Below the pieces are notes generated by a model. It did no database searches, had not been told where the DNA came from, and saw nothing but the letters and a program-made list of their open reading frames with translations. From Bifidobacterium breve (GTDB taxonomy: Bacteria; Actinomycetota; Acidimicrobiia; Acidimicrobiales; Acidimicrobilacustridaceae), in assembly GCA_945878645.1 (NCBI GenBank), contig CAMCTW010000004.1, positions 1 to 37,665 of the forward strand: a stretch of 37,665 nucleotides of DNA, in the 5' to 3' direction. The first letter of the stretch is position 1, and each line of letters begins with the position of its first letter. The position numbers were made by a program, and so were the translations under genes. Shown piece by piece: positions 10,263 to 15,389 of the stretch.

Positions 10263-11047
10263 CAGTTTTCCGTTTCGGGAATTGGTAGCGTCGATTCATC
10301 GTTCGGTGTTCGTCGAGAGTCCACCACGCGACGAGCCGCGTCCACCAATGCGTCATACAACGCAAGTTCGGAGGGGTCGATCGCGTCACGATGACGAGCG
10401 ACCGTGTCCCAGTCGCCACGCGCCACAGGGCCCGTCAACGCATCAATGACCCCAAGGTCTTCGATGTTATCGATCGTCGCACGAACGAGTTCTAAATACG
10501 CCTCGATCGGTACGCCAGCAGAACGGGCCACGCGTTCCGCGGAACCAAGCAGGGCAACAACGTGATTCGACGCAATCGCCGCAGCCGCGTGGTAGGCAAC
10601 TCGATGTTCATCGTCGACAACGAACGATCGACCACCAAGCGCATCGGCAAGCGATTCCATACACTTGAGCGCGCTCTCCGTGTTCGCATCGATAGCGAAC
10701 CATGCGCCGCCAACCAATCGCTCAGCTCCAATTTCCGGAGTCGGCATCGATGTCAGAGGATGAAGCGCTGCGCGTTGCGGATGATCTGCTAGCGCTTCAA
10801 GACCGAGCGCGCCAGAAAGATGGACAACAACTGTTGTTGGATCGGGCGTGATCTCGCGTGCGACCTCGACGATGACGCCATCTGGAGTCGCAATGACTAA
10901 AAGATCAACCCCGCTTGCTGCCGCCGAGAGCGACTCACCGCGTTGAACGGGAGCAACCACCGTCCATCCAACCCGTGCCAACGCAATTGCCAGCGCTCCA
11001 CCCGCACGGCCCGGCCCAATGATTCGGACCGAACTGTTCGTGGTCAT
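10262..11047 (-). CDS. Rossmann-like / DUF2520 domain protein
   Basis: VRIIGPGRAGGALAIALARVGW NAD-binding motif; HPLTSMPT; located immediately upstream of panC in the operon, as in other actinobacteria. Start at 11047 overlaps the folK stop (ATGA). Confidence 0.8.
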   Translation of the reverse strand: MTTNSSVRIIGPGRAGGALAIALARVGWTVVAPVQRGESLSAAASGVDLLVIATPDGVIVEVAREITPDPTTVVVHLSGALGLEALADHPQRAALHPLTSMPTPEIGAERLVGGAWFAIDANTESALKCMESLADALGGRSFVVDDEHRVAYHAAAAIASNHVVALLGSAERVARSAGVPIEAYLELVRATIDNIEDLGVIDALTGPVARGDWDTVARHRDAIDPSELALYDALVDAARRVVDSRRTPNDESTLPIPETEN

Positions 11048-11508
11048 CCTGGTTCGGCGTCGATTGGTCCGACGCGATGCACGTGACCCTCGGCCCGGTC
11101 GGCCCAATCAGGTCCGGCTACATCAGGAGCAAGATCGGCAAGCGGCGCCATTACGAAACGACGCGATTGCATTCGCGGATGGGGAACTTCGAGATCGGGT
11201 TCGGAAATCGTGACTCCGTCGATCCAGATGATGTCGACATCGAGCGTGCGCGGGCCCCACCGAACGGTACGCACTCGGTTTGCCGCCGATTCAAGACGAT
11301 GACAAACACCCAACAATTCGCGCGCACTCAACTCGGTATCGAGTTCAATCACGATGTTGAGAAACGGGTCTTGCTCTGGTCCGCCAACAGGATCGGTGCG
11401 ATAGACCGGTGACACCGCAACAACTGAATCAAGCGAATTCACCGCTTCACGCAAAAGCGACCACGAATCACCGATGTTTGAGCCGAGGCTCAAGAAGGCA
11501 CGTGACAT
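11044..11508 (-). CDS. folK: 2-amino-4-hydroxy-6-hydroxymethyldihydropteridine pyrophosphokinase
   Basis: FLSLGSNIGDSWSLLREAV; VYRTDPVGGPEQDPFLNIV; RWGPRTLDVDIIWIDG; VPHPRMQSRRFVMAPLADLAP. Confidence 0.96.
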   Translation of the reverse strand: MSRAFLSLGSNIGDSWSLLREAVNSLDSVVAVSPVYRTDPVGGPEQDPFLNIVIELDTELSARELLGVCHRLESAANRVRTVRWGPRTLDVDIIWIDGVTISEPDLEVPHPRMQSRRFVMAPLADLAPDVAGPDWADRAEGHVHRVGPIDAEPG

Positions 11509-11874
11509 TCAGCGTCCCCGAGTGATGGTGACGCCCGAAGTGGCCAGAGCCTGCGGCACTGGTGGGCGCAACTTCCGCACAGAAACCGTTACTGACAATG
11601 CTCGGGGATCGGCGAGCACTGCGTCGGCAATGTTCTGGGCGAGGTGTTCAAGTAACTGCGGGGTGCCGTTGAGAATCACGCGCTCAACTGATGCAGTGAT
11701 AGCTCCGTAATCAAGCGTGTCGGCGAGATTGTCTGACGCACCCGCCGCAGAAAGGTCGGCGACGACATCAAGGTCGACTTCGAGCGGCTGCGCCCGTTCA
11801 CGCTCTTCGGGAAGCGCGCCACAAATACCGGTCACCACAAGTTGGCGAAGTTCAATTCGATCAGTCGGGGCCAT
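11509..11874 (-). CDS. folB: Dihydroneopterin aldolase
   Basis: IELRQLVVTGICGALPEERERAQPLEVDLDV; DTLDYGAI; SVTVSVRKLRPPVP; between folK and folP. Confidence 0.93.
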   Translation of the reverse strand: MAPTDRIELRQLVVTGICGALPEERERAQPLEVDLDVVADLSAAGASDNLADTLDYGAITASVERVILNGTPQLLEHLAQNIADAVLADPRALSVTVSVRKLRPPVPQALATSGVTITRGR

Positions 11875-11890: not shown

Positions 11891-12409
11891 TCAGGCAGGC
11901 GGCGGGATCGTCAGTGAAATCGCAACCAACTCACGACCAATGGGGCCGAGTTGGCGCTGCGTCAACTGCTCGATCACGGTAACAACACGCGGCGGGCTCT
12001 CGACTAGGCCGTTCCAGAGCAAGTAGCCGGCGATCAGACCACACACGCGATCACTGAGTTCTTCAGCATGGATAAGGATCCGTTCGCCGCGCTCGAGCAA
12101 GGTTCGCAATTCCGCGAAGAACGCCGATTCGAAAAGACCGAGATCGTCTTCGGGGACGGGGCGATGGCGCCAGGTGACACCCAGCTCGTCGTAGTTGTGG
12201 AGATTGAGGGGAGCCGTGATCGTCGAGATGACACAGGTGAATCCCTGTTCGCGGACCCAGATGATTTCCTCTTGGCGGCGAACCTTTCGATGGTTCGCTC
12301 CATAGCCACCGGGTCGCTCACAGAGGGCGAGTCGCTCAGCGATCACCCAATGAAAGTTGCGGGGTCGGATCCCCTGCGCCCATTTCCCTTTACTGGCCAC
12401 GGCGTTCAT
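11891..12409 (-). CDS. PTP/DSP-fold protein with substituted catalytic Cys (putative pseudophosphatase) in folate operon
   Basis: 172 aa; DSP-like layout: NFHWVIAERLALCERPGG ... GFTCVISTI ... RPVPEDDLGLF ... ILIHAEELSDRVCGLIAGYLLWNGLV. The P-loop HCx5R reads H-A-EELSD-R. ATGA overlap with the folP stop. Confidence 0.6.
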   Translation of the reverse strand: MNAVASKGKWAQGIRPRNFHWVIAERLALCERPGGYGANHRKVRRQEEIIWVREQGFTCVISTITAPLNLHNYDELGVTWRHRPVPEDDLGLFESAFFAELRTLLERGERILIHAEELSDRVCGLIAGYLLWNGLVESPPRVVTVIEQLTQRQLGPIGRELVAISLTIPPPA

Positions 12410-13227
12410 GCTGCCACGACTTTGGCCGCTTGTTTGGCGCTTCTGACGTCATGAGCGCGAATCATGCTTGCTCCGGCCTGCATTGCCCAGACTTCCGTCG
12501 CGATCGATCCGGCAAGACGATCGTCGGCTGGAACCAGTTCGTTGGAACCGTCAGATGTCGCAAGGAGCCTTCCCAGCATGGCTTTTCTGCTTGTCCCTAC
12601 GACAACCGGCCAACCCATTTCAACGATGCGATCAAGGTGCGCGAGCAGGGCCAGATTGTGCGAATCGGTCTTCCCAAACCCAAACCCAGGATCGACCCAA
12701 ATTTCTTTTACTCCGGCCTCTGAAGCAGCCATTGCGCGCTCGCGAAGGAACGCACACACCTCGGCAACGACGTCGTCGTAGTGAGGATCGGCCTGCATCG
12801 TGCCCGGTTCGCCCTGCATATGCATGGCGATCCACCCCACACCAAGTTCCGCCGCAACGGGCCAAAGTGATGCCGACACATCGTTGATGAGCGTCGCTCC
12901 GGCGGCCACCGCAGCCTTTGCCACCTCGGCTTTGCGGGTATCGATACTGAGTCGACAACGACCGGCGAGACCTTCGATCACCGGAATGACTCGAGCGAGT
13001 TCCGTTTCGACATCGACTGGAGCAGCACCGGGACGAGTTGACTCTCCACCTATGTCAAGGACTGAGGCGCCTTCATCGACCAGCGTCAGGCCATGTGCAA
13101 TTGCGACTTCGGGGTCGAGAAACTTCCCACCATCACTAAATGAATCGGGGGTGACGTTGACAATCCCCATGACCAATGGGATTGATGTCGGAGTTCCGAC
13201 TCCGAGCCGAGGTTTGACGTCGGCCAC
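12406..13227 (-). CDS. folP: Dihydropteroate synthase
   Basis: LVMGIVNVTPDSFSDGGKF; GASVLDIGGESTRPGA; IWVDPGFGFGKTDSHNLALL. Confidence 0.97.
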   Translation of the reverse strand: MADVKPRLGVGTPTSIPLVMGIVNVTPDSFSDGGKFLDPEVAIAHGLTLVDEGASVLDIGGESTRPGAAPVDVETELARVIPVIEGLAGRCRLSIDTRKAEVAKAAVAAGATLINDVSASLWPVAAELGVGWIAMHMQGEPGTMQADPHYDDVVAEVCAFLRERAMAASEAGVKEIWVDPGFGFGKTDSHNLALLAHLDRIVEMGWPVVVGTSRKAMLGRLLATSDGSNELVPADDRLAGSIATEVWAMQAGASMIRAHDVRSAKQAAKVVAA

Positions 13228-13229
13228 GT

Positions 13230-13805
13230 TTAGTCGCGAGCGATGAATCGCATCGCTTCAAGTCGGGTCGCAGCGCTTTCACGGAACAATCCACGCACGG
13301 CTGAGGTCACGGTGCTTGAACCAGGCTTGCGAACTCCACGCATCGACATGCACAAATGCTCTGCTTCGATGACAACGAGCACGCCTCGCGGTTGCAACGT
13401 GGTTTCGAGCTCGTCGGCAATCTGCGCGGTCAGACGCTCTTGCACCTGCGGGCGTTTGGCGTAGGCGTCGACAAGGCGAGCGATTTTTGAAAGACCAGTC
13501 ACACGACCATCGGTACCGGGGATATAGGCAACATGGGCTTTACCCATGAACGGAACCAAGTGGTGTTCGCACATCGAAGTGAGTGCGATATCGCGAACCA
13601 TGACCATCTCGTCGTGATTCGCTTCGAACATGACCTGAAGGTGGCTGCTGGGATCATCACGAAGACCAGCAAAAACCTCGGCGTACATGCGCGCAACACG
13701 ATCGGGGGTGTCCTGAAGGCCATCGCGGTCAGGATCCTCGCCAATTGCGATGAGGATCTCTTTCACGGCGGCTGAGATACGGGGAAGATCAACGGGGTCC
13801 ATCAC
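13230..13805 (-). CDS. folE: GTP cyclohydrolase I
   Basis: [65 protein letters not shown]. Confidence 0.97.
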
Positions 13806-13883: not shown

Positions 13884-14465
13884 TCAGTGACCACTTTCCG
13901 GGCCAACAAAGACCCGAAGATCGTCGAGATTGCGATAGCGCTCCGCCACATCGAGACCATAACCGACGACAAACTCATCGGGAAGTCGGAAACCTACGTA
14001 GCGAAGATCGGGTTCAACTTTCTGCATGCCTTCTTTGAGCAGAAGGGCACAGACCTCGAGGCTGGCGGGATGTCGCGCCGCCAAATTCTTTCGGAGGTAG
14101 TTCAGCGTGAGACCGCTATCGACGATGTCCTCGACAATGATGACATCGCGCCCAGTGAGATCAATATCGAGATCCTTCACGATCCGGACCACGCCACTGG
14201 TCTTCGTTGCTGTGCCGTAAGAAGACACCGCCATGAAGTCGAGCTCGACGGGTAACGCGATTGCGCGAGCGATGTCGGCCATAAACATGACCGCACCTTT
14301 GAGAACCGCAATCAGCAACGGCGCGCGGCCGGCGTAATCGGCCGTGATCTCTTCGCCTAATTCAACAATGCGCTGCTGAATGGCTTCGTGGCTGACGAGG
14401 ATCTGGCCCAGATGGGGATCGACATCGGGATGCGGGTGGTCATTTCCAGACGCGCTTTGGATCAC
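13884..14465 (-). CDS. hpt: Hypoxanthine phosphoribosyltransferase
   Basis: LLIAVLKGAVMFMADIARAI; VIIVEDIVDSGLTLNYL (PRPP motif); LRYVGFRLPDEFVVGYGLD. Confidence 0.95.
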   Translation of the reverse strand: MIQSASGNDHPHPDVDPHLGQILVSHEAIQQRIVELGEEITADYAGRAPLLIAVLKGAVMFMADIARAIALPVELDFMAVSSYGTATKTSGVVRIVKDLDIDLTGRDVIIVEDIVDSGLTLNYLRKNLAARHPASLEVCALLLKEGMQKVEPDLRYVGFRLPDEFVVGYGLDVAERYRNLDDLRVFVGPESGH

Positions 14466-14486: not shown

Positions 14487-15389
14487 TCAGACTTTCGGTG
14501 CCGCCACGATTCGCAACCGACCTGCGGTTCGTTCGACGCGACGATTTCCACCCACGTCGGTCGCGGTGGCCTCGCCCTTTACGACGGCCATGACGCGATC
14601 AATCGTTGCTGCGTCAGGCGGATGTCGCTCTTCTGCGCCTTCTCGGAGCCACTCTCGGAGAGCGACGCGAGCAATCGCCTCGGGTGCATCGCGAAGAGTC
14701 CGCGCATCAGTTGGGTCAAGCGCAGTCGCTTCGAAACGCAAATGATCAGCAACCGACGCGAACACATCGGCCTGGCGATCGAGAATCGGAACCGGGTCGC
14801 GGCCAGCAATCTCGGCGAGCAACGGAAGTACTTCGTGCCGAACACGATTGCGAACAAACGCAGGATCGCTATTACTGGGATCAAAGAACGGTTGGATCCG
14901 TTCAACTTCACAGACCCGTTCTGTTTCCGATCGACGCAGATCCAAAATCGGATGACGGAGGCCCGGGCGGATCGAAGCCAACCCGTCAGGCCCTGCACCG
15001 CGCAACAGATTCACGATCATTGTTTCGGCCCGATCGTCCGCAGTGTGACCAAGAGCAGCGTCGGGCCCCAGCACTTCGTGGCGAGCGGTTCGAGCCCGAG
15101 CTTCAAGATTGGCGCCCGCATCCACCATCACTGATTCAGCCCGGAACGACGCGCCAAGACCATCGGCAACCGATCGGACACGATCGGCCTCGTCACGCGA
15201 GCCAGCACGCAACCCGTGATCGACATGAACCGCCGTGACAACACAGCCTGCGGCGACAGCCAAAACCAACAGGGCCATCGAGTCAGCGCCGCCTGACACA
15301 CCACAGACCAATGGAGAGCCCGCGGGCGGGAACGTGCAACGAGCCAGCAATTCCTCGTGACGTTCAGCGAGAGAACTCACGACGAACAA
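14487..15389 (-). CDS. tilS: tRNA(Ile)-lysidine synthase
   Basis: PP-loop CGVSGGADSMALLVLA; HVDHGLRAGSRDEAD; GHTADDRAETMIVNLLRGAG. Confidence 0.93.
   Translation of the reverse strand: MFVVSSLAERHEELLARCTFPPAGSPLVCGVSGGADSMALLVLAVAAGCVVTAVHVDHGLRAGSRDEADRVRSVADGLGASFRAESVMVDAGANLEARARTARHEVLGPDAALGHTADDRAETMIVNLLRGAGPDGLASIRPGLRHPILDLRRSETERVCEVERIQPFFDPSNSDPAFVRNRVRHEVLPLLAEIAGRDPVPILDRQADVFASVADHLRFEATALDPTDARTLRDAPEAIARVALREWLREGAEERHPPDAATIDRVMAVVKGEATATDVGGNRRVERTAGRLRIVAAPKV

Follow-up and report, generated by a model that had tools for sequence, protein, structure and literature searches.

Pseudophosphatases are known mainly from eukaryotes. In STYX, a protein with the PTP fold, the catalytic Cys has been lost, but the protein is still under selection and works by binding; it keeps the remainder of its P-loop. 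Active dual-specificity phosphatases (DSPs) of the DUSP23/VHZ type retain the HCx5R motif, which holds the catalytic Cys and the phosphate-binding Arg. Here we describe a bacterial protein, called X below, whose best structural match is to atypical DSPs, DUSP23/VHZ among them (PDB 2img, 4erc), with which it shares length and predicted fold; unlike them, X is without HCx5R and has, ahead of helix 1 and within it, an ERxGG-x4-HRxxRRxEE motif. We argue that X, a PTP/DSP superfamily member closest in structure to the DUSP23/VHZ-like atypical DSPs, probably does a housekeeping job by binding and has no catalytic activity. Pseudophosphatases are already known; a class-wide bacterial one with the loop and motif of X is new.

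The gene for X was found in a window of 37,665 nucleotides, the whole stretch of DNA that we analysed, within a folate operon neighbourhood (Table 1). An original prediction, made from the letters alone, had placed a 172-residue frame between folP and folB with an ATGA overlap, and both ORF calls and the Pfam matches of the neighbours confirm it. The gene reads from 12409 to 11891 on the minus strand, which had not been given before; its start lies inside the folP stop (a 4-base overlap), and folB begins 16 bases past its end. DUF2520, panC and panD are also among the Pfam-identified genes around X, and locus comparison singles out the tilS-type gene as the neighbour that stays with X when the folate genes are gone from the locus. 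Titled relatives are mostly MAGs of Acidimicrobiia/Acidimicrobiales. Public contigs titled Bifidobacterium breve (L001 and L013, with 100% and 82% identity at the X locus) or Ferrithrix thermotolerans (L040, 55%) bear the locus as well—these titles look wrong.

Table 1. Features of the X locus, with positions in the window.
Feature	Position	Strand	Basis
X, PTP/DSP-fold pseudophosphatase (predicted fold), 172 aa, ATG start	11891..12409	-	fold prediction and orthologue survey
Family signature E31RPGGYGANHRKVRRQEEIIW51, most conserved segment of X	12257..12319	-	homologue alignment
Degenerate P-loop H114-A-E-E-L-S-D-R121 (active PTPs: HCx5R; X family: H-x-[D/E]-x3-[D/E])	12047..12070	-	sequence and homologue alignment
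folK (HPPK)	11044..11508	-	Pfam
folB (dihydroneopterin aldolase), directly downstream of X	11509..11874	-	Pfam
folP (dihydropteroate synthase), ATGA overlap with X	12406..13227	-	Pfam
folE (GTP cyclohydrolase I)	13230..13805	-	Pfam
hpt-type phosphoribosyltransferase	13884..14465	-	Pfam
tilS-type PP-loop protein	14487..15389	-	Pfam

That X has a PTP/DSP fold, as first proposed from its layout, is as certain as a prediction allows. AlphaFold2 with an alignment of 80 homologues gave a model with a mean pLDDT of 91.8 and a pTM of 0.87, in which the P-loop position lies between a strand (111-115) and a helix (120-132); the DSP fold has helices on the flanks of a central sheet, and its P-loop joins the last strand to a helix. 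Foldseek returned 230 PDB matches to this model at E<=0.001, the top ones DSPs; VHZ/DUSP23 was best (E 8.6e-8 to 1e-7, TM 0.79-0.82 by target), and KAP, the baculovirus RNA 5'-phosphatase and Cdc14 were also in the top ranks. A protein from the sister branch of the family, discussed below, is likewise predicted to have a DSP fold by AlphaFold2 (pLDDT 93.3) and Foldseek, and a STYX-type pseudophosphatase (PDB 2r0b) ranks 14 among the Foldseek matches to its model.

When X alone was searched against the PDB (phmmer), one DSP was found, 25xa ('Dual specificity protein phosphatase family protein'; E=4e-4), with HAEELSDR of X aligned on HCRAGYGR; with an 80-homologue profile, 25xa reached E=2.6e-10, and VHR and other DSPs matched weakly. 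This sole clear sequence relative of X in the PDB is co-linear with it over profile positions 14-150 and shares its NxxWVI...LA start. The P-loop of 25xa is complete, its His aligned to H114, and the HRxxRRxEE segment falls in an alignment gap, so the family that has lost the phosphate site is the one that carries the motif.

The catalytic site, its Cys replaced by Ala115 in the window, has truly been lost family-wide. We counted residues in 145 distinct homologues, 20 of them from another class: Cys115 is present in 17 and Arg121 in 93, but the two never occur together, so that the combination of catalytic Cys and phosphate-binding Arg is missing from X and from every homologue. The Ala115 codon is GCT, two substitutions from TGT, just as the original prediction had it. 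Class members have G, A, R, K, Q, H, N, S, M or rarely C at position 115; this variety, together with the low dN/dS reported below, rules out a sequencing error or a recent inactivation. A surviving phosphatase among the relatives is ruled out too, since the Cys115 carriers (2 class members and 15 sister-branch members) are all without Arg121.

Other features of the loop are kept. His114 is found in 145/145 homologues, and acids stand at both 116 and 120 in 138. Loops in the class mostly read HGEELGDR, HAEELSDR or HKEEVGER, with HRDTIDDT-like forms in deeper lineages; those of the sister branch read HCDRxxEW or HVDRPGEW, with the general form H[C/V/I/G][D/N]R..E[W/F]. The HCx5R spacing, which was thought to be preserved, does hold for the window sequence and its near relatives; the Arg is not family-wide, however, and the loop has been acidified. 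A P-loop that varies across homologues, as this one does, was among the outcomes that the original prediction had itself named as counting against it. The candidate general-acid segment RPVPEDD is present at residues 83-89, and 103 of the 125 class members have D or E at position 88, where the sister branch has mostly V, A or E; both R121 and the PEDD segment are conserved among nearer relatives only. Judging from the loop sequences, the acidic residues gained should disfavour phosphate binding, and X should therefore not simply trap phosphorylated ligands via its P-loop in the manner of STYX-type proteins—in X the Arg has been lost as a family feature and two acids have been gained, and in this STYX differs.

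Conservation is strongest at the other end of the protein. The ERxGG-x4-HRxxRRxEExxW signature is nearly invariant in the family; W21, E31, R32, G34, G35, H40, R41, R44, R45, E48 and W51 are invariant or nearly so in the 145 homologues. Mean identity is 63% in the N-terminal part against 41% in the C-terminal part, which holds the P-loop, and overall identity is similar to that of FolB, TilS and PanC. In this basic and acidic motif, residues R32, H40, R41, R44, R45, E48 and W51 are placed just before and in helix 1.

Orthologues of X are present in all 61 of the nearest genomes and in 190 of the 198 class genomes sampled, almost always as a single copy, and streamlined genomes of about 1.1 Mb keep it. 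One apparent duplicate, a head-to-head inverted X locus with equal scores (L031, G024:C50:33156-35215), looks like an assembly palindrome. Outside the class, a phylum-wide sample yielded profile matches in 3/197 genomes, all from one family; in the class of that family, presumably Thermoleophilia, where the sister branch of X occurs, 21/120 genomes match, one by 37 residues only. This last (L220, G495) is an X-like remnant between folP and folB, and may be a pseudogene, a frameshift or contamination. The dN/dS of X against close relatives is 0.00-0.12. X thus combines a predicted PTP fold and missing catalytic residues with purifying selection; the orthologous family, the absence of Cys115 with Arg121 throughout it, the acidic loop, the N-terminal motif and the low dN/dS together indicate a real pseudophosphatase rather than a mutant or an error.

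The reading of X that we find most economical, and consider somewhat favoured overall, is non-catalytic binding. The stretch ahead of helix 1 walls one side of the active-site cleft in DSPs, so the N-terminal motif of X probably faces the old P-loop: helix 1 and the loop that precedes it would line the former cleft, as the DSP recognition loop does. Motif and acidic loop together may then make up a re-purposed site, whose partner would be a ligand or, with greater likelihood, a protein or an RNA, bound but not hydrolysed. The housekeeping job of X would be independent of folate synthesis, and X would sit in the tilS-hpt-fol operon through an inherited, old gene order. Two observations count against such a reading. 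The persistent folP-X-folB order by itself suggests a folate role, and the strong invariance of H114 and of the acidic positions 116 and 120 could also reflect a new catalytic site that does not use Cys.

The main rival takes up this second point, and we consider it rather unlikely: X would catalyse a reaction without Cys, on substrates that are not pterins. H114, the two acids and the N-terminal His/Arg cluster could conceivably make up a hydrolase or transferase site on the PTP fold, dependent on a metal or on acid/base chemistry. Besides the loop residues, H40, R41, R45 and E48 are nearly invariant, and polar invariance of this kind is typical of catalytic sites; the same residues could equally serve binding or structure, however, and no metal motif of the HxH/DxD type was seen in X. 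To our knowledge, enzymes with the PTP fold use Cys. There is a small chance that a PTP fold, early in actinobacterial evolution, was converted into a site of a new kind, in which the former P-loop, now acidic, and a newly gained Arg/His motif jointly recognise a ligand or act on it by non-Cys chemistry. If true, this would be a non-Cys site with an important function in nearly the whole class, the most streamlined members included, and so far unknown elsewhere.

An improbable alternative is a role in folate synthesis, in which X would bind or dephosphorylate dihydroneopterin tri- or monophosphate, or scaffold FolP and FolB. The original prediction had connected X, by position, with the gap at dihydroneopterin triphosphate (DHNTP) dephosphorylation. 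The linkage on which it drew is conserved in much of the class: folP-X-folB, joined to folP in the window by the ATGA overlap, is the commonest order and holds at most loci, and tilS-X or other orders are found in several lineages. The pathway also offers room for such a protein, as a non-specific phosphatase is believed to remove the last phosphate of dihydroneopterin phosphate (DHNP), and most genomes lack DHNTP pyrophosphatase genes (PMC1971073). The step posited for X is filled by FolQ, a DHNTP pyrophosphatase, and by the non-specific DHNP phosphatase (PMC1971073); FolQ is a Nudix protein and not a PTP, and X, judging from its distribution, is dispensable for folate synthesis and persists in its absence.

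The genomes that separate X from the pathway bear against the proposed gap role. In family f7, where X adjoins tilS with no folate gene alongside, six genomes keep X (G067, G089, G096, G186, G211 and G221; 95-99% complete, G186 being a single 4.97-Mb contig), and in these six no HPPK or FolB was found, and the only DHPS matches were MetH-length frames and weak ones (about 98-102 bits); such species would seem not to synthesise folate. The complete 4.83-Mb genome of another f7 member (G085) has folB and folK about 2.4 Mb from X. G216 retains X in the order tilS-hpt-ftsH-X-DUF2520-panC, with folate genes missing on both sides and no DHPS outside a MetH-length frame. Conversely, the three genomes of family f26 (G073, G172, G219) have folP and folK but no X; in G073 folB was also found, and folP and folB abut. 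Further, P-loop Cys and Arg are both unconserved family-wide, and the sister branch is without folate linkage—X there is usually near a 4HBT_2 thioesterase-type gene, with folP and folK elsewhere (loci L165-L167, L203-L219). Co-occurrence of X with the genes of de novo folate synthesis thus fails, whereas clustering with folate genes holds. The folate link of X is positional only: the operon is where X resides in many genomes, not its purpose. X could conceivably act in the use of folate instead of its synthesis, since auxotrophs still need folate.

The loci vary in other ways. Marine members have tilS-hpt-X-folB-folK, with folE and folP missing at the site. Six loci (L130, L138, L162, L172, L199, L202) have folP-X-folK without folB; several genomes with this order carry a second HPPK elsewhere, and in G216 HPPK adjoins FolB on another contig. 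About 1.5 kb of extra sequence, with ORFs that have no Pfam match, lies between X and folB in some genomes (L140:4184-5044, L142, L143).

Some members of the family, from two lineages, carry tails (L141:3892-5328, L159, L096:1498-2373). The long L141 frame adds a K/A-rich tail and nothing more, which ruled out a fused domain from which the function of X might have been read. The tails and the persisting tilS neighbour are hints of a nucleic-acid context, no more. That X is a nucleic-acid-associated accessory protein, acting for example with tRNA or TilS through its basic N-terminal motif and histone-H1-like Lys/Ala-rich tails in contact with RNA or DNA, is very improbable: it would fit the tilS-X adjacency where folate genes have left, the 298-residue K/A-rich tail of one lineage (Pfam HC2, 3.8e-6), the 123-residue K/A/P-rich tail of another and the RNA 5'-phosphatases among the structural neighbours, but most members are tail-less, the HC2 match is below the curated cut-off, and the sister branch has its thioesterase gene, not tilS, nearby.

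Most likely, X represents a family that is new and uncharacterised, on a fold that is known. Neither Pfam nor NCBIfam gave a match above the curated cut-off for the window protein; across 80 members, the best DSP-type match was Tc-R-P at 6e-4, below cut-off, and NCBIfam gave none. Our literature search found no paper describing the family, and no bacterial pseudophosphatase with an X-like distribution turned up in our searches. A published search for Acidimicrobiia signature proteins took the proteins of A. ferrooxidans as its starting point and gives only ones of unknown function, which may or may not include X (PMC5962788).

A single-copy, strongly conserved and unannotated protein in nearly the whole class—aquatic and soil bacteria, including members with genomes of about 1.1 Mb—suggests that a housekeeping function has gone unrecognised. 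Its distribution also frees X from the folate pathway, where annotation based on synteny would put it.
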